The position numbers and the translations under genes were made by a program. Source: Selenomonas timonae (lineage in GTDB: Bacteria > Bacillota > Negativicutes > Selenomonadales > Selenomonadaceae). From it: a stretch of 64,000 nt of DNA. Positions 28,431-40,399 of this stretch are shown piece by piece. The DNA lies in contig NZ_CP060204.1 of the NCBI RefSeq assembly GCF_014250475.1, forward strand, positions 2,245,001 through 2,309,000. The letters are read 5' to 3'. Below the pieces are notes generated by a model. The model did not search any database. It saw only the letters and a list, made by a program, of their open reading frames with translations, and was not told the DNA's origin. Every line of letters starts with the position of its first letter. Within the stretch, counting starts at the first letter, position 1.

Positions 28431-29417
28431 ATGCACGCATTCAAACATTTACTCACTGCCCTGCTATTATGCACGCTATGTATCATCCCATACACTGCCT
28501 CTGCCGCCGATACGAATGCAGACTACCGGGGCTATCTCTGGCGCATCGACATGACTGCGGGCAATGCGGCGGAGCTGCCGCACAATTTCCGCACGGCGGG
28601 ATCGCCGTTCCAAACGCGGACAGACACAGCGAAGTTCGGTGTCGACCCGAACTACACTCCCTCTCGTGAGGGACTGGACGCCCTGCCGCTCTCGGGAAGC
28701 GCAGAGTTCTCCGTCCCTGCCTTTCATGCACTGCTGAAAGACCTGCACACGCGCGCAAAGGGCTCGATCTGTATCGTCGATCTGCGGCAGGAGTCGCACG
28801 GCTTCATGAATGGAAACGCCGTCAGCTGGTACGGCAAGCACGACTGGGGCAACATCGGCAGGACGAAGCACGAGGCACTGCGTGACGAGAACATGCGCAT
28901 TCGCAGTGCACAGGGAAAGATCGTAGTGCTCGCGCACCTCGATAAGAAAAAGCAGCCCAAAAATCAGCAGACCATTCACGTCATGGAGGCGATGACGGAG
29001 CGCCAGCTGGTCGAGGATGCGGGCGTGCGCTACGTCCGTCTCGCCGTCACCGACCACAAATGGGCAGACCCGCAGACCATCGACAAATTTGTCGATCTCG
29101 TGAAAAAAATTCCCGCGGACACATGGATACACTTTCACTGTCAGGCAGGCAAGGGACGCACGACCAGCTTTATGGCGATGTACGATATGATAAAAAATCC
29201 CTCCGTCCCGCTGAAGGACATCCTCTATCGTCAGTACCTGCTCGGCGGAGCATACCTCGCCTACGACCCGACCATGCAGCATGCACCGACGGAATGGGAG
29301 GATGCAGACTACCATCACAAGTCAGAGATGATCGCAAAGTTCTACGATTACGTTCAGCAGAATCACGAGAACGACTATGCCGTACCGTGGAGTATGTGGC
29401 TGAAGAAGAATCCATAA
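28431..29417 (+). CDS. Exported PTP-like inositol-phosphate phosphatase (phytase-like)
   Basis: A 328-residue protein with a signal peptide (about residues 1-26) and a cysteine-phosphatase fold. The P-loop HCQAGKGRT at 236-244 contains the nucleophile Cys237 and Arg243, and Asp208 in VTDHKWADP is placed as the general acid. This is the architecture of the PTP-like phytases first described in Selenomonas ruminantium, which dephosphorylate myo-inositol hexakisphosphate stepwise. The protein should act in the periplasm or outside the cell. The ATG at 28431 follows GGAGGGATC. Phytate as substrate is inferred; a protein-phosphatase role is less likely. Confidence 0.87.
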   Translation: MHAFKHLLTALLLCTLCIIPYTASAADTNADYRGYLWRIDMTAGNAAELPHNFRTAGSPFQTRTDTAKFGVDPNYTPSREGLDALPLSGSAEFSVPAFHALLKDLHTRAKGSICIVDLRQESHGFMNGNAVSWYGKHDWGNIGRTKHEALRDENMRIRSAQGKIVVLAHLDKKKQPKNQQTIHVMEAMTERQLVEDAGVRYVRLAVTDHKWADPQTIDKFVDLVKKIPADTWIHFHCQAGKGRTTSFMAMYDMIKNPSVPLKDILYRQYLLGGAYLAYDPTMQHAPTEWEDADYHHKSEMIAKFYDYVQQNHENDYAVPWSMWLKKNP

Positions 29418-31495: not shown

Positions 31496-33037
31496 TCAAA
31501 CAATTCCTTTCCCGTGCAGAAACTCTTCCGCAACGGCGCGTGGCTCTTTGCCCTCACTCTCGACGGCGTAGTTCATTGCCGCCATCTCCTCATCTGTGAT
31601 CTTATCCGTCAGCTTTTCGAGCGCAGCATCAAGCTCTGGATGGCGATCCAAGACCTCCGCGCGCACGACGTTGCCGCAGCGATAGGACGGAAAGAATCCT
31701 TGATCGTCCGTCAAGACGCGTGCATCTGCCGCCGCAAGCTGCCCATCCGTCGTGAACACAATCATCACATCAATTTGCTTGTTCGCAAGCGCCTGATATT
31801 TCAGCCCGATATCGAGATCAACCGTACGTGCAAAATCAAGTCCGTATGCCTTGCAGAGCGCGGGAAATCCATCCGCACGCTCGAAGAAATCATACTCCGC
31901 ACCAAACGTCAGCTGCGGGGCAGCGCGGCGCAGATCAGAGTAAGTGTGCAGATCGTACTTCTCAGCAATTTCCCGCCGAACGGCAACGCCGAACGTATCG
32001 TTGAAGCCGTACATCCCGACCCAACGCATCGCAAAACGCCGCTCATATTCCTCGGACAGCTGCGGAAACAGTTCCTCGCTGTATTTTGACTCCTCCTTGA
32101 GCACCATGTTCCAGCCCGTTCCCGTATACTCCGGGTAAATGTCGAACGCGCCGCTCTCCATCCCGGGGTGGATGTTCGACGTACCGCCGCCGACGCCCGC
32201 TGTGATGCGCGCCTCGAGCCCCGTATCGTGCTCAATCAGGAGTTTCAGCATCTCGCCCATAATCAGCTGCTCCGTCATCGGCTTGGTCGCAATATGGACA
32301 ACATCCGCCTTGCCAAAGAAGCCGTAGGTCACGGTGCTCACGGCAATGAGCAGTACGGCAGCTGCCCCCGCATAGGCAGCGCGTACGTTTCCTGTGATGC
32401 GTGCGGGGCGTTTCAGCCACGCCTCGACCTGCCCCAGTGCGCCGTCCACCACGAGCGCAAGCACGGCGATCAGGAGGCTCCCCGCAATCGTGAGCGCGGG
32501 GTTGTTCGTCGTGATGCCGCGATAGATGGCAACACCGAGACCGCCCGCACCGATAAAGGACGCAATGCCGGCAAGTGCAATCGTCATCGTCGCCATATTG
32601 CGAATCCCGGACATGATGACGGGCATCGCAAGCGGAATCTGAACGCGCGTCAGCACATGAAACGCCGAGCCGCCCATGCCGATTGCCGCCTCCACAAGCG
32701 AGGGCTGTATCTGCGCAAGCCCCGTATGCGTCGCGCGCACCATCGGCAGGAGTGCATAGATCGTGAGTGCAATGATCGCCGAGCGGTTGCCGATGCCGAA
32801 AAACGGAATCAAAAAACCGAGCATCGAAATCGATGGGATCGTATAGAGAAAGTTCACCGTGCCAAGCGTCGGTGCCGCCGCGCGCTCATAACGATGAATG
32901 AGGACACCTGCCACCCCGCCAAGCACAACAGCGATGCCGATTGCTGCCCCCGAGATCCACAGGTGCTCAACCAAGAGCTGTACAAAGAACGCACTGCGTT
33001 CTGAAAAGATGGAAAAAACTGCGTGCAATAGCTCCAT
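31496..33037 (-). CDS. OpuB-type ABC permease fused to substrate-binding domain
   Basis: A 513-residue fusion. About residues 1-210 form a BPD_transp_1 permease with several transmembrane segments and the EAA-type loop around EAAIGMGGSAFHVL. After a further membrane segment, about 235-513 form an OpuAC-type substrate-binding domain as in glycine betaine, carnitine and choline transporters. The binding domain is thus tethered on the periplasmic face. No ATP-binding partner is encoded next to it: the gene is monocistronic between its own promoter and terminator. The ATG at 33037 follows TTGGAG. A compatible-solute role is likely, the exact ligand unknown. Confidence 0.87.
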   Translation of the reverse strand: MELLHAVFSIFSERSAFFVQLLVEHLWISGAAIGIAVVLGGVAGVLIHRYERAAAPTLGTVNFLYTIPSISMLGFLIPFFGIGNRSAIIALTIYALLPMVRATHTGLAQIQPSLVEAAIGMGGSAFHVLTRVQIPLAMPVIMSGIRNMATMTIALAGIASFIGAGGLGVAIYRGITTNNPALTIAGSLLIAVLALVVDGALGQVEAWLKRPARITGNVRAAYAGAAAVLLIAVSTVTYGFFGKADVVHIATKPMTEQLIMGEMLKLLIEHDTGLEARITAGVGGGTSNIHPGMESGAFDIYPEYTGTGWNMVLKEESKYSEELFPQLSEEYERRFAMRWVGMYGFNDTFGVAVRREIAEKYDLHTYSDLRRAAPQLTFGAEYDFFERADGFPALCKAYGLDFARTVDLDIGLKYQALANKQIDVMIVFTTDGQLAAADARVLTDDQGFFPSYRCGNVVRAEVLDRHPELDAALEKLTDKITDEEMAAMNYAVESEGKEPRAVAEEFLHGKGIV

Positions 33038-33164: not shown

Positions 33165-33193
33165 TTGTCACATCCCCGCGCCTGTGCTATAAT
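33165..33193 (+). promoter_or_regulatory. Promoter of the P-type-ATPase-like gene
   Basis: TTGTCA (33165-33170) and TATAAT (33188-33193) with a 17-bp spacer, about 40 bases before the TTG start at 33231. Confidence 0.8.
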
Positions 33194-33230
33194 GCCCGTG
33201 TAAAAGTAACAGGACAGGAGTTGAACGTCC

Positions 33231-34586
33231 TTGAAAAAAATGTTTTCTTCATTCTTTCATTTTATCGCAAGCGTCGTTCTTGCGGCAGGAGCTGCGGGAT
33301 ACTGGTACATCGCGGGCGACATCACAGTCGAAGCAGCGTCCGAAATTTTTCTCGGGGTCTTTCTCGCCGCTTCGCCTCTGCCCTTCATTGTCTCGCGCAT
33401 GCTCATTGGACTGCGCATCAAGCGGCGGCTGCGTGACTCGGGTATCACATGCAGCCGCATGAGCGCACTCACGGAGCTGCTGCATGTGGACACAATCGCA
33501 TTCAACCGCAACGGCACGCTCACGGAAGGCAGCGTATTCATCTCTGCGCTCGTGCCCGAGGGCATGACGCAGGGCTCTCTGCTCGCACTCGCCGCGAGTG
33601 CCGAGCGCGAGGCAACACACCCCTATGCGCATGCACTCTACGACACCGCTGTCCAGCGCGGTCTGCACCTGCAGCGTCACTCTGCCGCGCGCGAGACGGA
33701 GAGTTTCGGCGTCGAGGCGCTGATTGCACGCACGCCTGTGCGCGTTGGCAAGAAGGAGTGGCTGCAGGAGGAGAACATCGAGATCAGCGCTGCGCTCCTC
33801 ACGCGCGCCGATCAGCTTGCAACGAGCGGACAGACGCCACTCTTCGTCAGCTCAAGCAAATACGCGCGCGGCATCATCGCCGTCCGCGACGATGTACGAG
33901 CAGAGGCGCGGCGCGCACTGATCGCCCTGAAGGAGCGCGGACTCTCCCTCATCCTCCTCACGGGTGAGACGAAGCGCCTCGCAAATGCAACGGGCAAAGA
34001 GCTCCGTATCAGCGAGGTGCGCGCCGACCTCACGGGCACGGACAAGGCACGCGAGATCCGTCTGCTCCAATCGCGCGGTGCAGTCGTTGCGATGGTCGGT
34101 GACCCTATGGCAGATCAGCCAGCCCTGCGTGCAGCAGACATCAGCATCGGCTGCCCCTCCTCGCTCGAGAAACAGCCCACCCCCGAAGAGGAAGACACGC
34201 CGCGCGATCCGCTGCATGAGGAACTCATGCGCGGACAGAACGATGAGAAGCCAAGCGAAATGGAGCCGCTTATGCCTCCTGAGGATGCTGCCTACTTTGA
34301 GGCACAGGCACTGCGCAACCAGGGACGATCCACAAGCTTCATGCCGGACATTGTACTGGACAAGGAGGGGCTGCCGAGTCTTGTCACGCTCTGGGACACA
34401 TGCAATGCCGCACGCGCACGCGCAAAACAGAATCGCTGGCTGAGCCTCCTCTTTCTCTTCCTCTTTACACCTGCCGCAGCGGGCGTACTCACCTTCTTCG
34501 ATGCCACCGTGCTCCCCTATCCCATCGTCGGCGGTGCTCTTGTTTTGCTCCTCATTCTGCTCATTGTGAACGCACTTCGGGAATGA
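33231..34586 (+). CDS. Truncated P-type-ATPase-like protein with degenerate catalytic motifs
   Basis: A 451-residue protein whose order of parts matches the C-terminal two-thirds of a P1B-type metal ATPase: two transmembrane helices (about 7-30 and 36-60), a P/N domain, and two C-terminal helices (about 403-422 and 428-447). There is no actuator domain and no earlier membrane helices. Key residues are replaced: the DKTGTLT loop reads NRNGTLT (phosphorylated Asp is Asn92), the CPC metal motif reads SPL (48-50), TGD reads TGE (244-246), and GDGxNDxP reads GDPMADQP (290-297). The HP pair of the N domain (130-131) is kept. A 55-residue acidic insert follows the P domain. It starts at a TTG after AGGAG. 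Transport by phosphorylation is unlikely; the role is unknown. Confidence 0.75.
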   Translation: MKKMFSSFFHFIASVVLAAGAAGYWYIAGDITVEAASEIFLGVFLAASPLPFIVSRMLIGLRIKRRLRDSGITCSRMSALTELLHVDTIAFNRNGTLTEGSVFISALVPEGMTQGSLLALAASAEREATHPYAHALYDTAVQRGLHLQRHSAARETESFGVEALIARTPVRVGKKEWLQEENIEISAALLTRADQLATSGQTPLFVSSSKYARGIIAVRDDVRAEARRALIALKERGLSLILLTGETKRLANATGKELRISEVRADLTGTDKAREIRLLQSRGAVVAMVGDPMADQPALRAADISIGCPSSLEKQPTPEEEDTPRDPLHEELMRGQNDEKPSEMEPLMPPEDAAYFEAQALRNQGRSTSFMPDIVLDKEGLPSLVTLWDTCNAARARAKQNRWLSLLFLFLFTPAAAGVLTFFDATVLPYPIVGGALVLLLILLIVNALRE

Positions 34587-34595
34587 GGTTAATAA

Positions 34596-34621
34596 ATATT
34601 CATTCTTAAATAAGTGAATAT
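34596..34621. promoter_or_regulatory. AT-rich inverted repeat upstream of the cyd promoter
   Basis: ATATTCA and TGAATAT (34596-34602 and 34615-34621) flank an inner CTTA/TAAG pairing. The element lies 11 bases upstream of the cydA -35 and 10 bases after the preceding stop codon. It may be an operator for a redox-responsive regulator, or a weak terminator; it matches no consensus I can name with confidence. Confidence 0.35.
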
Positions 34622-34632
34622 ATCCATCTAAC

Positions 34633-34661
34633 TTGTATTTCATTTTAACCTATGATATAAT
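34633..34661 (+). promoter_or_regulatory. Promoter of the cydABDC operon
   Basis: TTGTAT (34633-34638) and TATAAT (34656-34661) with a 17-bp spacer. The leader of about 85 bases contains a CTTTTGT/ACAAAAG hairpin before the AGGAGGGG ribosome-binding site. Confidence 0.8.
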
Positions 34662-34750: not shown

Positions 34751-36121
34751 ATGGAAGAAGTGCTGCTGTCACGATGGCAGTTTGCAATCACCACCATCTA
34801 TCACTTTCTCTTCGTCCCCGTCACCCTCGGCATGGCGATTTTCGTCGCCATGCTTGAGACGTGCTATGTGCGGACGAAGAAGCCGGAGTGGAAGAAGACC
34901 TGCCGAAAGCTGTTGCATTTCTTCGGCACGCTCTTTCTCATCAACTTTGCGATGGGTGTCGCTACCGGTCTGGTGCAGGAGTTCCAGTTCGGCATGAACT
35001 GGTCGGAGTATTCGCGCTTCATGGGCGACATCTTCGGCGCACCGCTCGCACTTGAGGCACTGACGGCGTTCTTCCTCGAGTCGACGTTCCTCGGCATCTG
35101 GATGTTCGGCTGGGATAAGCTGCCGGAAAAGGCACACTGTGCCTGTATTTGGCTCGTTGCTCTCGGCAGCAATCTGTCCGCGTTCTGGATTCTCGTCGCG
35201 AACTCCTTCATGCAGCACCCTGTCGGCTACACCATTGCCAACGGGCGCGCGGAAATGGCGAGCTTCTTTGAACTCGTGACGAATCACTACATCCTCGGCG
35301 AGCAGTCTCATACGCTCTTTGCCGGCATCACGACGGCGGGCTTTGTCGTCATGGCGGTCTCGGCTTGGAAGCTGCTCCACGATACGGAATCACGCTACGC
35401 CTTTACACAGGCGATCAAGGCGGGCGCGATTTACACCATTGTCGGCGTCGTCGGCGTCATCGCAAGCGGACATCTGCACACGCAGTATCTCGCGCAGGCA
35501 AGCCCGATGAAGCTCGCCGCGATGGAGGCACTCTGGGAGACGGAGGATCCTGCGCCGTTCGCTGTACTCGCCTATCCAAACATGGAGAAGGGGCACAACG
35601 ACTTCGAGATCACGATCCCCTATATGTTCACGATCATGGTACATGACGGCATCCAGGGTGAGGTGCGCGGCATCAACGACCTTCAGAAGGAAGCCGTCGA
35701 AAAATTTGGTCCTGGCGACTACCGTCCGCATGTCACCATGCTTTTCTACGCGTTCCGTGCGATGGTCGGCGCCGGCTTCTTCATGGTGCTCGTCTCGCTC
35801 GTGGTGTTCTACCTCGCGAAAAAGGACAAGCTGTTCTCGGCGAAGAAGTTACTCTTCGCGCTCCCGTGGCTCGTCATCGTTCCTTTTATTGCGAATTCCT
35901 GCGGCTGGATCGTTGCGGAGATGGGTCGTCAGCCGTGGCTCGTCATGGGGCTGCAAAAAACCGTTGACGGTGTGTCGCCGAACCTTACCTCGGCAGAGAT
36001 TATGTTCACGATAATCGGCTTTACCGTGCTCTATCTGCTGCTCATCATCACGGCGCTCTACATCGCCTTCCGCTTCATCCGCCGCACGCAGATCACACCT
36101 GCCATCGAAGGAGGGAAGTAA
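34751..36121 (+). CDS. cydA: Cytochrome bd oxidase subunit I
   Basis: A 456-residue integral membrane subunit of the quinol:O2 oxidoreductase that carries hemes b558, b595 and d. His20 in [10 protein letters not shown] matches the conserved N-terminal heme ligand, and the GRQPW signature is near residue 394. The quinol-binding Q-loop is of the short, Firmicute type. The ATG at 34751 lies seven bases after AGGAGGGG; an in-frame TTG at 34745 is less likely. First gene of the cyd operon. Confidence 0.95.
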
Positions 36122-36123
36122 GA

Positions 36124-37140
36124 ATGGACTACAATATTCTCTGGTTCGTGCTCATCGTCGTCCTCTTCACGGGATTCTTCTTCCTTGAGGGATTCGACTA
36201 CGGTGTCGGCACACTGCTCACACTCCTCTCGGACAAGGAGAGCGACCGCTCTCAGATCGTTCGCTCCATCGGCCCTGTCTGGGACGGGAACGAGGTCTGG
36301 ATGATTACGGCGGGCGGCGCAATGTTCGCGGCATTCCCGCATGTCTACGCCACGCTCTTCAGCACGTTCTACATTGCGCTCTTTCTCATGCTCGTCGCGC
36401 TCATCCTGCGTGCGGTCGCATTCGAGTTTCGCCATCAGCGCACGGATGAAAAATGGCAGCGCGCATGGTCGTGTGCGATTGCGTTCGGCAGCATCGTCCC
36501 CGCGTTCCTCTGGGGCGTGGTTGTCACGAACCTCATCGCGGGTCTGCCCATCGGCGCAAATATGGTCTATCGAGGCGGCTTTTTCGATCTCCTGACCCCG
36601 TACACGGTGGTCGGCGGCGTGACATTCTTCGCAGTCTTTGCATTCCACGGCGCGACATTCCTGAACCTGCGCCTTACGGATCGCTACCTGCTGGAGCGTG
36701 CACGCAGCTATGGGCTGAAATTCGGTGTCGCTGCAGCGCTTCTCTACGTACTCTGCATGGTACTCACGTACACGAATACCGACCTCTACAGCAGCCCGCT
36801 TGCAGCTGGCGCACTTGTCCTCTCCGCCGCAGCGTTTGTCGCTGCCATCGGTGCGCTCTATGCCAAGGCACATAAACCCGCGTTCATCCTTGGCGGTCTT
36901 GCCATCGCGGGCACGACGGTTGGCTTCTTCGCGGGGCTCTTCCCGCGCCTCATGGTCTCAAGCCTGAATGCGGGCTGGAGCCTCACGATCTACAATGCGT
37001 CCTCAACGGAGTACACACTCTCCATCATGACAGTCGCAGCGGTCATCCTCGTTCCGATTATCCTCGGCTATCAGATCTGGACGTACTACATCTTCCGCAA
37101 ACGCATCTCTCCAAACGATGCGGGACATCAGGCATACTAA
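36124..37140 (+). CDS. cydB: Cytochrome bd oxidase subunit II
   Basis: A 338-residue membrane protein, the structural partner of CydA. The N-terminal segment FFLEGFDYGVGTL and the WDGNEVWM motif are typical of CydB. The gene begins two bases after the cydA stop with a GAAGGAGGG box inside the cydA end. Together the two subunits reduce oxygen to water with menaquinol, giving oxygen protection and some proton-motive force. Confidence 0.95.
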   Translation: MDYNILWFVLIVVLFTGFFFLEGFDYGVGTLLTLLSDKESDRSQIVRSIGPVWDGNEVWMITAGGAMFAAFPHVYATLFSTFYIALFLMLVALILRAVAFEFRHQRTDEKWQRAWSCAIAFGSIVPAFLWGVVVTNLIAGLPIGANMVYRGGFFDLLTPYTVVGGVTFFAVFAFHGATFLNLRLTDRYLLERARSYGLKFGVAAALLYVLCMVLTYTNTDLYSSPLAAGALVLSAAAFVAAIGALYAKAHKPAFILGGLAIAGTTVGFFAGLFPRLMVSSLNAGWSLTIYNASSTEYTLSIMTVAAVILVPIILGYQIWTYYIFRKRISPNDAGHQAY

Positions 37141-37145
37141 TCACA

Positions 37146-38792
37146 ATGAAAAAAAAGAAGTCCATTCTACGCTCTGTGCTGCACACCGAACGCAGCAGCC
37201 TCCTCATACGCGCGGTGATCGAACTCCTCCACGGGGGGCTCGTCATCGCGGCGGCATGGGAAACTGCCGTCATCGTGAATGCAGTATTCATGGAGCACGG
37301 CGGACCTACCGAAACAGCATCAGATCTTCTGATGCTGTTTTTGTGCGTCCTCTCTATGGCACTGCTGCGCCTCCCCAAGGGACGCATCGAGGCGCAGCTC
37401 TCCCATCGGCTGCGCCTCTCTGTACGCACGGCCTTGCACGAGGCGATGCTGATGCACGGACGTACCTCTGCAGGTACACTGACACTGACCCTTGAGCGCG
37501 TAGATGCACTCGACCCATTCTTCCACACGGTGCTGCCAACGATGATTGCGGGCGCAGTGCTCATCCCTCTGATCCTCATTGTCACGGCGTTTGCAGACCC
37601 ACTCTCGGCGCTGCTCTTCCTCGTAACGCTGCCGATTGCGCCGTTCCTGCTCTTCCTCATCGGAAAGGCGACGCGCCGTGCGAGCGAACGCCAGTGGGAC
37701 AAGATGCAGACGCTCACAAACGGCTTCGGCGAGCTTGTGCGCGCGGCAATGACGCTCAAGATCTTTCGCCGCATCGATGCCGAGGGCGTGCATCTCGCGC
37801 ATATGAGCCACAGCTTCGCCGAGGCATCGCTCTCCGTTCTCCGGCTTGCCTTTGTCTCGGCATTCGCACTGGAGCTGATTACCACCCTCTCGATTGCGCT
37901 CATTGCCGTCTCCATCGGTCTGCGTCTTCTGGAAGGAATGATGTCCTTCCAGCCGGCGTTCTTTGTACTCATTCTTGCGCCGCTGTTCTATCAGCCACTG
38001 CGCGAGGGCGGCATTGCATTCCATGCAGCGATGGATGCAAAGACGGCAGAGGAGGCGCTCACCCCCTATCTGGATCTCCCCTCCCCCACGGACGGCGCAC
38101 GCAGTCAGATCCTGTCACCGCCCGCCGTGCATACAGAACAGCTCTCCTATCGCTATCCACTGACCGCGGAGGAGGTGCTTACCGATCTGACCCTCTCCTT
38201 CCCCGCAGGAAAGTCCACGGTGCTCGCAGGGGCGAGCGGCATCGGCAAGTCCACGCTGCTCCTCCTGCTCGCAGGTCAGATTGCACCGACCGAGGGAAAG
38301 ATTGTGCTCGCGGACGGGGCAGGGAGCGCCAACGTATTTGACCTTACACAGCTCTCGGAGGCAACAAAACAAAATCTCATCACCTACGTACCACAGGAGC
38401 CGCATATCTTTACAGCAACGCTCGCCGAGAATGTCAGCCTGTGGCATGAAAACGCCTCGGACGAAGCCGCTATCGAGGCGCTCGAAGCAGCGGCACTCGG
38501 AGACTTCGTGTGCGCCCTGCCCGAGGGACTTCGGACACCGCTCGGACAGGGCGGACATCCCCTTTCTGCCGGACAGCGTCACCGTCTCGGGCTCGCACGG
38601 GCGTTCTTCCAGAACCGCCCCATTGTCCTCCTCGACGAGGTGACAGCGGGACTGGACGAAGCGACAGAAGCAACCGTCATTCATGCACTGACGCGCTTTG
38701 CCCATCATCGCACGCTGATTCTGACATCACACCGCCCCGCACTCATTGCGTGGGCAGATCATGTCATCACATTGGGAGGTGAGCACGCATGA
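37146..38792 (+). CDS. cydD: CydD-type half of the CydDC ABC exporter
   Basis: A 548-residue ABC half-transporter: an exporter membrane domain (about 1-315) then an ATPase with Walker A GASGIGKS at about 362-369, the signature LSAGQ and Walker B IVLLDEV. CydDC is needed for bd oxidase assembly; it was described as a cysteine/glutathione exporter and more recently as a heme transporter. It starts five bases after cydB with only a weak ribosome-binding site. In Bacillus naming this position would be cydC. Confidence 0.9.
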   Translation: MKKKKSILRSVLHTERSSLLIRAVIELLHGGLVIAAAWETAVIVNAVFMEHGGPTETASDLLMLFLCVLSMALLRLPKGRIEAQLSHRLRLSVRTALHEAMLMHGRTSAGTLTLTLERVDALDPFFHTVLPTMIAGAVLIPLILIVTAFADPLSALLFLVTLPIAPFLLFLIGKATRRASERQWDKMQTLTNGFGELVRAAMTLKIFRRIDAEGVHLAHMSHSFAEASLSVLRLAFVSAFALELITTLSIALIAVSIGLRLLEGMMSFQPAFFVLILAPLFYQPLREGGIAFHAAMDAKTAEEALTPYLDLPSPTDGARSQILSPPAVHTEQLSYRYPLTAEEVLTDLTLSFPAGKSTVLAGASGIGKSTLLLLLAGQIAPTEGKIVLADGAGSANVFDLTQLSEATKQNLITYVPQEPHIFTATLAENVSLWHENASDEAAIEALEAAALGDFVCALPEGLRTPLGQGGHPLSAGQRHRLGLARAFFQNRPIVLLDEVTAGLDEATEATVIHALTRFAHHRTLILTSHRPALIAWADHVITLGGEHA

Positions 38793-40399
38793 CTGCACTT
38801 GTTCGTCTGCTCGCAATCGCGGCACCGTCAAAGGCATTGCCCGCCCTCCTCGCGGGTGTTCTCGCGGCCGCCTCGGGCATTGCTCTGATCGGGACGGCTG
38901 CGTGGATCATCGCAAGCGCGGCACTGCAGCCGCCGCTCTCCACGCTTGCACTTGCGATTACATTGGTGCGGGCGTGCGGCATCGGGCGTGCCGTCTTTCG
39001 CTATCTCGACCGTCTGCTCTCCCATCGACTTGCATTTGCGTGCTATGAGAACCTACAGCAGGCAACCTATCGACGTTCTGCTGCAACGATTCCTCTGCGG
39101 GAGGGCAATGTCCGCGAAGGCGAATTTCTGCACGATCTTCTGACGGGCTGCGAGACCCTGCGTGACTTCTACCTGCGTACCGTTCCGCAGCCGCTGATTG
39201 CAGGAATGCTCACTGCCGTGACCTGTGCGGTACTCCTGCCGCTCAGCCCATGGGGCGCACTTCTTATTGCATTTCTCTATCTCCTGCATCTCGCCCTCCC
39301 CCACCTTCTGCATGAAGCAGATCTGCGCACGGAGAGCACTTCCTATCGAGAAATTTTGCTCGACCGCCTCGACGGACGTGCTGAGCTTGCGGCGGCGGGT
39401 ACACTCAGACGGACACAGGGACAGCTCGATCATGCAGCGGAGGTTTTTCAGCAAAAACAGGATGACAAACGCACGAAGCGCGAGCGCCTCTTCACCTTGC
39501 TCGATGTTCTGCGTGTCGCGGTCTGGATTCTCCTGATTGTTCTCCTTACGCCGCGCGTCGCGGACGGGACACTGACAGGCGTGCAGTACGCTGTCTGGGT
39601 GCTCGTCCTCGAAGCCGTTATCAGCGAGTACCGTCCTCTGCCCGCCGCAAGCCTCGGTGCAGTGGAGGCAGTGCAGGCAGCAGAGACGATCCTGCCAGCA
39701 AAGGAACAGTCCTCTGAAAAAAACTTGTCAGCATCCTCTCTCGCGTGGCAGGAGGATGCTCCGCTGATTGCGGCGGAGCATCTCGCCTTTGCCTACCATG
39801 ACGGCATTCCGATCCTGCAGGATTTTTCATGCACGATTCGGCGCGGCGAGCACACGGCGATCATCGGCGAGAGCGGCGCAGGCAAGACCACGCTTGCAAG
39901 CCTTCTCCTGCGCCTCTGGGAGCCCGACAACGGTACAATCTCATATAGAGGAGTACCGCACACCGCCATTTCTGCCGACGCCTCACGCGCCCTCTTTGGA
40001 GCGTCCCTGCAGGGGAGCTTTCTCTTCAGCACATCGACGCGTGACAACTTCCTGCGCCTGCACGCGGATATGGATGAGCAGCGGATGTGGCATGCACTTG
40101 AAACAGCGCAGCTTGCCGATGTCGTGCATGCGCTCCCCGCAGGCCTCGACGAGCCGCTCGGTGTAAATGCCGCACGGCTCTCGGGTGGACAGCGCAGCCG
40201 CCTTCTCACGGCGCTTGCCCTTGCCTCCGATGCCCCGCTGCTCCTCCTCGATGAACCCACAGCAGGACTGGATGCAGAGCGTGGTGCACGCCTGATTGAG
40301 TGTGTGCTCGCGGCACTCGATGCACGCGGCGGTACGCTCATCGTCATCACGCACGACCTTCCCCTTTTAGACCGTATGAAACAGGTGATAGAACTATGA
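38789..40399 (+). CDS. cydC: CydC-type half of the CydDC ABC exporter
   Basis: A 536-residue ABC half-transporter that pairs with CydD. Walker A GESGAGKT is at about 360-367, with signature LSGGQRSRL and Walker B LLLLDEPTAGLD near the C-terminus. Its ATG overlaps the cydD stop by four bases and follows GGGAGGTGAG. The membrane domain is in the N-terminal 310 residues. Bacillus naming would call it cydD. Confidence 0.9.
   Translation: MTALVRLLAIAAPSKALPALLAGVLAAASGIALIGTAAWIIASAALQPPLSTLALAITLVRACGIGRAVFRYLDRLLSHRLAFACYENLQQATYRRSAATIPLREGNVREGEFLHDLLTGCETLRDFYLRTVPQPLIAGMLTAVTCAVLLPLSPWGALLIAFLYLLHLALPHLLHEADLRTESTSYREILLDRLDGRAELAAAGTLRRTQGQLDHAAEVFQQKQDDKRTKRERLFTLLDVLRVAVWILLIVLLTPRVADGTLTGVQYAVWVLVLEAVISEYRPLPAASLGAVEAVQAAETILPAKEQSSEKNLSASSLAWQEDAPLIAAEHLAFAYHDGIPILQDFSCTIRRGEHTAIIGESGAGKTTLASLLLRLWEPDNGTISYRGVPHTAISADASRALFGASLQGSFLFSTSTRDNFLRLHADMDEQRMWHALETAQLADVVHALPAGLDEPLGVNAARLSGGQRSRLLTALALASDAPLLLLDEPTAGLDAERGARLIECVLAALDARGGTLIVITHDLPLLDRMKQVIEL

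Follow-up and report, generated by a model that had tools for sequence, protein, structure and literature searches.

Gene organization and protein features

The window (the whole 64,000-nt stretch of Selenomonas timonae DNA that was analyzed) carries, upstream of a cydABDC cluster, a gene for a homologue of P1B-type copper ATPases (CopA) that has lost the catalytic residues of the pump (Table 1). An earlier note, made from the sequence alone, had described an open frame of 451 codons, and the ORF listing agrees (33231–34586, plus strand, uninterrupted). The profile search matched the protein to the Pfam HAD hydrolase family (PF00702: 70.7 bits), to the NCBIfam HAD-IC P-type ATPases (TIGR01494: 90.7 bits, above the cut-off of 62.3) and to the NCBIfam heavy-metal P-type ATPases (TIGR01525: 180.7 bits, below the cut-off of 346.25); its best solved relatives were copper ATPases (E = 3.9e-34).

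All the motif changes that the earlier note had listed were found as described. DKTGT is NRNGT, with Asn92 where the phosphorylated Asp is expected, the copper-site motif CPC is SPL (residues 48–50), TGD is TGE in the second part of the P domain, and the hinge GDGxNDxP reads GDPMADQPA. The nucleophilic Asp of HAD phosphatases and hydrolases is thus replaced by Asn despite the match to PF00702. M1–M2 and the actuator domain (with its TGE motif) are missing, as had also been claimed: nothing precedes the CPx-helix pair, and upstream the frame extends by just two codons. An active CopA has a phosphorylated Asp, CPC, an actuator domain and the GDGxND hinge, all absent here; the P and N domain fold of an active P1B ATPase is present, as judged from the structure match and the retained HP motif (His130–Pro131). 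A homologous fold with lost catalytic residues, in a gene retained by purifying selection, marks the protein as a pseudoenzyme.

An AlphaFold2 model was built from 24 sequences (24 of 26 candidates, the window protein included; the G004 copy, with a run of N, and locus L106, with a broken frame, were excluded), with a mean pLDDT of 80.1 and a pTM of 0.64. Helices at residues 2–27, 33–46/50–70, 381–417 and 430–449 surround the P and N unit. The fold search proposed earlier did recover copper P1B ATPases: 7r0g was the top Foldseek match, and in VIA-align the model superposed on the P and N domains of nucleotide-bound CopA (3a1c_B: Z = 28.4, rmsd = 2.6, 273 residues aligned) and its N domain on that of CopA (2voy_J: rmsd = 1.2 Å over 118 residues). 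The acidic insert before the last two helices, previously called long and atypical, does exist (18 D/E among 71 residues), but in the degenerate homologues that reach this part it can be anything from 1 to 75 aa long.

Table 1 Features of the pseudo-pump gene and its surroundings in the window
Feature	Position	Strand	Evidence or remark
Promoter-like site TTGTCA-17-TATAAT, TG before -10	33165..33193	+	11/12 consensus match; 10/10 genus species aligned
Shine-Dalgarno AGGAG, 10 nt before TTG start	33216..33220	+	Sequence; GGAG conserved in genus alignment
Pseudo-P1B-ATPase (CopA-derived), 451 aa, TTG start	33231..34586	+	ORF, profile, structure and tree evidence
M3–M4 helix pair, aa 5–70, SPL instead of CPC at aa 48–50	33243..33440	+	Alignment, model
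P domain, first part, aa 78–103, NRNGT for DKTGT	33462..33539	+	Alignment
Codon AAC, Asn92, site of phosphorylated Asp	33504..33506	+	Sequence, alignment; Asp in 1/50 degenerate homologues
N (nucleotide-binding) domain, aa 104–219, most constrained part; E125, H130, G160, G173, W177 retained	33540..33887	+	
P domain, second part, aa 220–309, TGE and degenerate hinge	33888..34157	+	Alignment
Acidic low-confidence linker, aa 310–380	34158..34370	+	Block pLDDT 37–55 over aa 311–370
M5–M6 helix pair, aa 385–450, weakly conserved	34383..34580	+	Model, conservation
cydA promoter-like element TTGTAT-17-TATAAT, TGA before -10, 3' of pseudo-pump gene	34633..34661	+	Nearly invariant, genus alignment
cydA (cytochrome bd subunit I)	34751..36121	+	ORF listing starts it at TTG 34745
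cydB	36124..37140	+	Name from position and reading
cydD-like ABC transporter half	37146..38792	+	Name from position and reading
cydC-like ABC transporter half	38789..40399	+	Name from position and reading

Retention and selection within the genus

An orthologue was found in all 14 genomes of the genus, the other 13 copies being 73–91% identical to that of the window, and Asn92 is present in 14/14. No internal stop was reported in any of the 14; in G004 a run of N breaks the copy. Those relatives that carry names are oral Selenomonas species, plus Centipeda periodontii. For the 13 genomes left after exclusion of the G004 copy (loci L014 and L092; run of N), dN/dS between the window and the 12 other species was 0.09–0.20 (pS = 0.37–0.61), with nonsynonymous change minimal in residues 91–210. 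Two of the checks proposed in the earlier note, conservation of Asn92 and dN/dS, came out in favor of its claim that the gene is not decaying: retention in 14/14 genomes and the low dN/dS rule out local decay, and support a pseudo-enzyme maintained by purifying selection over a recently formed pseudogene.

The consensus promoter that had been assigned to the gene is conserved in the 10 genus species aligned, where promoter, Shine-Dalgarno sequence and start region form a conserved island while the rest of the upstream DNA is barely alignable. The promoter scan that gave this site did not list the element before cydA, which was recognized in the genus alignment; its conservation suggests that cydA is transcribed separately. 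Between the pseudo-pump gene and that element lies an AT-rich imperfect inverted repeat (34598–34620, ATTCATT...AAGTGAAT), which is only partially conserved in the genus alignment.

Distribution and phylogeny in Selenomonadaceae

We use slot gene for any member of the clade that unites the pseudo-pump of the window with its intact CopA relatives. Among the Selenomonadaceae, 155 of 189 genomes gave a match at E ≤ 1e-40; some of the 34 without one carry diverged copies (L132–L134). Forty regions were examined, and twenty more, some of them outside the family; the frames outside the family were at least 743 aa among the matches listed in a search of 250 genomes of the class. The losses seen in the window protein recur throughout: in 50 degenerate Selenomonadaceae proteins the Asp is kept in 1, the first Cys of CPC in 10, the second in 4, the hinge Gly in 5 and the hinge Asn in 6.

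Slot genes occur in three states. Six genomes from four genera (g9, g11, g25 and g26) have an intact CopA of ~740–760 aa (L055, L161, L059, L138, L075 and L076) with a metal-binding N-terminus, TGES, CPC, DKTGT and TGD, none of which is intact in the window protein; the hinge GDGIND is also whole in all but L076, whose sequence stops at a contig edge after 632 aa. Seven genera (g8, g15, g17, g18, g19, g20 and g24) have long dead forms of 532–756 aa, which share with the window protein the retained N domain and the lost Asp and differ from it in a longer N-terminal part. The g8 form has an altered yet recognizable actuator motif, and the g24 form (L074) is the exception in retaining the Asp, with CPC and hinge gone. 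The largest group consists of short forms of 362–475 aa. Some copies are broken, with in-frame stops in G117 and G162 and a disrupted frame in a metagenome sequence (L106); the frame of L060 lacks the end of the protein.

In the IQ-TREE phylogeny (without L161) all slot genes, the intact ones of g9, g11, g25 and g26 included, were joined with a UFBoot of 100, and so were the dead forms with g25 and g26 (UFBoot = 100). Monophyly of the dead forms alone was weak (UFBoot = 29 in IQ-TREE, 0.893 in FastTree), and g9 was placed elsewhere, with weak support, by FastTree but not by IQ-TREE. The earlier note would have taken full-length intact homologues in close relatives as a sign of local decay. Such homologues do exist, but they belong to different genera within the clade, and the loss is thus ancient and not local.

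Genus g3 has short degenerate forms of 379–444 aa (L132 in G021, L134 in G017, L052 in G020 and L133 in G028), which FastTree places together with the long dead g8 forms (0.895). Were this grouping right, truncation would have occurred independently at least twice.

A second CopA and redundancy

We checked 40 genomes from 27 genera for a second CopA. Thirty-three had it as a frame of 810–985 aa (typically ~860 aa), and G126 had a frame of 459 aa that a contig end may have cut. It was missing in exactly six (G047, G048, G115, G116, G178 and G179), which are those with an intact slot CopA. Of the other 34 genomes, 29 have a slot gene read as degenerate, and five (G036, G037, G039, G067 and G091) have none at E ≤ 1e-40, G036 having another match in the class search. 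This co-distribution fits release of the slot gene by redundancy, and on the tree the association may represent about one evolutionary event. When all 189 genomes were scanned with an intact M4–P1 stretch, the six intact slot genes led among the matches listed, with the next match (a ~866-aa CopA) scoring close behind and eight genomes without a match at the cut, which supports, and does not prove, that these six are all the intact slot genes in the family.

Another P1B ATPase, perhaps of the zinc/cadmium type, is found in 14/14 genus genomes (G000:C1:869196-869891 and loci L141–L153; frames of 530–826 aa).

Neighboring genes

The neighborhood was counted in 47 loci, with limits set at 3.5 kb and 1.5 kb; a number of the contigs are short. 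Both ispE and cydA were near the slot gene in 11 loci, cydA alone in 5, ispE alone in 19 and neither in 12. Where present, cydA lies directly downstream (16/47 loci, 9 genera) and always on the same strand (16/16), while ispE is on the opposite strand in 28/30. More lasting as a neighbor is the ispE side, which comprises ispE itself, a GntR-type regulator, glmU and prs (named by reading the sequences). Genera g1 and g22 retain cydA though ispE was not found nearby, and so does the genus of the window, in which, as far as can be read, a glycine-betaine-type transporter and a class III FBPase-like gene have replaced the ispE side while cydABDC stayed. The intact genes of g9 and g25 adjoin ispE, and that of g9 also lies upstream of cydABDC, so ispE-copA-cydABDC is likely the ancestral order; given the constant strand, the position of cydA looks like inherited gene order. 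On whether the gene stays next to cydAB, a check proposed in the earlier note, the count is thus 16/47 loci, and the gene is also retained in draft genomes without a detected cydA (e.g., G034, G124, G126 and G127).

For ten copies that adjoin neither ispE nor cydA (the intact L059 included), inspection by eye revealed no common neighbor; the exception is three S. ruminantium copies (L068, L108 and L110), which share neighbors among themselves. In the genus of the window, a single ORF divergent from the pseudo-pump gene (31496–33037, minus strand) seems, from reading its sequence, to encode an ABC permease joined to a glycine betaine (OpuC)-type substrate-binding domain.

Constraint on the N domain and its nucleotide pocket

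The distribution of constraint along the protein is inverted relative to CopA. Across 22 degenerate genera (the P724 paralogue excluded from these domain statistics), mean pairwise identity was 0.45 in the N domain and 0.21–0.32 in the other parts; across 18 intact CopAs the N domain was the lowest (0.40 vs 0.59–0.69). Among the 6 pairs formed by four intact members of the family itself, the N domain ranked lowest in 4 and level with P2 in the other 2; the inversion is therefore not due to the family's age.

As a control, we compared pN/pS in five parts of the pseudo-pump and of the working CopA from the same seven species, with intervals from a codon bootstrap. In the N domain, pN/pS was 0.040 (0.020–0.066) in the pseudo-pump and 0.335 (0.264–0.417) in the working CopA, so that the most constrained part of the one is the least constrained of the other; in M5–M6 the order was reversed (0.327, 0.245–0.420 vs 0.109, 0.046–0.190), and in the remaining parts the intervals overlapped. 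Whole-gene pN/pS was alike (0.209 in the pseudo-pump, 0.230 in the working CopA), and the difference therefore concerns where the constraint lies. Selection on DNA or RNA can be ruled out as the main cause, since pS was merely slightly lower in the N domain (0.511) than in the other four parts (0.536–0.625).

Among the 50 degenerate proteins, G160 and G173 are invariant, and E125 is kept in 47, H130 in 45, W177 in 45 and G158 in 40. We matched residues to ATP7B numbering by eye, from motifs and spacing. According to PMC3203118, ATP7B G1099, G1101 and G1149 sit at the ATP, a simulation places W1153 at the ribose, and the N domain on its own has a Kd for ATP of 52–74 uM; H1069Q is given there as binding ATP like the wild type, so the role of the histidine is disputed. 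The match is incomplete in places: the genus of the window has Ser at the G158 site and Lys at the position of ATP7B Asn1150, where Asn occurs in 4/50 degenerate and 15/21 intact proteins. Three proteins of the S. ruminantium group (L067, L085 and L096) have lost both E125 and H130, with Gln at the His site, and keep the pocket glycines; such proteins can evidently do without the Glu-His part of the site, and these three offer a natural test of nucleotide binding.

Other N-domain sites are kept as well. For E155, E181, T191 and D194 no place was found in the pocket, and they fit a docking surface equally well. E155 is present in 20/20 short forms, where the four intact members have T or A, and R213 in 17/20.

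Discussion

At this locus a redundant copper exporter has lost transport, and selection has kept its N domain. From P1B-1 CopA (e.g., that of Archaeoglobus; PDB 3a1c, 7r0g and 2b8e) the protein retains the P and N fold, the position of the CPx helix, M5–M6 and the Glu, His and Gly residues of the N domain, and it differs in lacking M1–M2, the actuator domain, CPC and the phosphorylated Asp and in its broken hinge. Constraint rests on the transport core in CopA and on the N domain in the pseudo-pump. The pseudo-pump has been retained since ancient times, and residues of its nucleotide pocket are kept. This evidence points to the nucleotide-binding domain, rather than to metal sensing or a link to the bd oxidase, as what selection maintains.

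The history can be reconstructed as follows. The gene goes back to a full-length CopA in Selenomonadaceae, adjoining ispE and, in the likely ancestral order, upstream of cydABDC. With a second CopA of ~860 aa present, the slot copy would have been free to lose transport: it shed its copper ligands, its phosphorylated Asp and its hinge, and in the end the actuator domain together with the first helices. What selection has retained is a cytoplasmic N domain on a P-domain base, with four helices of nearly free sequence as membrane anchor. Such a protein could still bind ATP or ADP in the absence of phosphorylation, and might act when nucleotide brings its N and P domains together, or by docking to a partner, as a nucleotide-responsive membrane adaptor. 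We put the chances at about even that the protein binds nucleotide without becoming phosphorylated and serves as an adaptor or sensor anchored in the membrane, with ATP binding and the partner as the conjectural parts. Somewhat more tentative, at a little under even, is the family-wide version, in which the slot gene in over 20 genera (22 were sampled) would represent a pseudo-P-type ATPase turned from redundant copper exporter into membrane-anchored nucleotide sensor by stepwise loss of the actuator domain, with the N domain as functional core and the transport machinery as a mere anchor.

The nearest competitor to nucleotide sensing would keep the N domain as a protein-protein surface, with nucleotide binding incidental or lost. 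The strongly kept sites for which no place was found in the pocket, E155 and R213 in the short forms among them (E155 being new relative to the intact family members), and the absence of E125 and H130 from L067, L085 and L096 would suit such a scaffold, but it leaves the universal G160 and G173 and the nearly universal E125, H130 and W177 without a reason once catalysis is gone, and we regard it as unlikely. Sensing of metal or heme by the membrane part, which the earlier note had entertained, finds no support in the lost copper ligands or in helices that are among the least conserved regions. The same note had linked the gene to the bd oxidase encoded downstream. A role in assembly or regulation of CydAB/CydDC would agree with the same-strand position before cydA in 9 genera and with its persistence in g1 and g22 where no ispE was found nearby; the intact g9 gene already stands in this order, which can be counted for such a role and equally reads as ancestry. 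Weighing on the other side are ispE, nearby in 30/47 loci of which 19 are without cydA, the drafts that keep the gene without a detected cydA, and the promoter-like element of cydA's own. The link is thus possible but not favored, that claim is largely unsupported, and an accessory of cytochrome bd seems quite improbable.

Degenerate forms occur only where a second CopA exists (40 genomes; a fragment only in G126), as they would if the protein were a regulatory partner of the working pump, for instance in a mixed dimer. Simple redundancy predicts the same pattern, however, and a partnership of this kind strikes us as very unlikely. Least credible of all is a decaying pseudogene whose frame is open by chance: progressive domain loss and the broken copies in G117, G162 and L106 are what decay would produce, but decay does not yield low dN/dS at such pS, 14 genus genomes with no reported internal stop, or a conserved promoter and ribosome site. 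The preferred reading remains a nucleotide-binding adaptor or sensor, from which we predict that nucleotide binds to the N domain and that this domain is important, whereas the transport core is not.

Pseudo-enzymes are already known as a kind; in pseudokinases and others, ATP-binding folds have been reused for signaling after catalysis was lost. If our reading is true, a P-type ATPase has taken the same route, which would provide a clean case of pseudo-enzyme evolution within a transport family. Its stages survive today as the intact pump, the dead form of full length and the membrane N-domain protein of half that size. A limited search of open-licence literature found no bacterial pseudo-P-type ATPase. 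The P4-ATPase domain of Plasmodium guanylyl cyclase alpha is comparable as a P-type ATPase module that serves as more than a pump; according to PMC7858053, it shares 47 of 56 key residues, and its authors consider the domain, fused to the cyclase, consistent with a functional ATPase. The window protein has neither the mostly kept key residues nor the cyclase fusion. For annotation, such proteins call for caution, since they score as P-type ATPases and most cannot pump.

Elsewhere in the window, the gene at 28431–29417 (plus strand) encodes a protein with a signal-like N-terminus and the motif HCQAGKGRT, which presumably resembles the cysteine-phosphatase phytases of Selenomonas.
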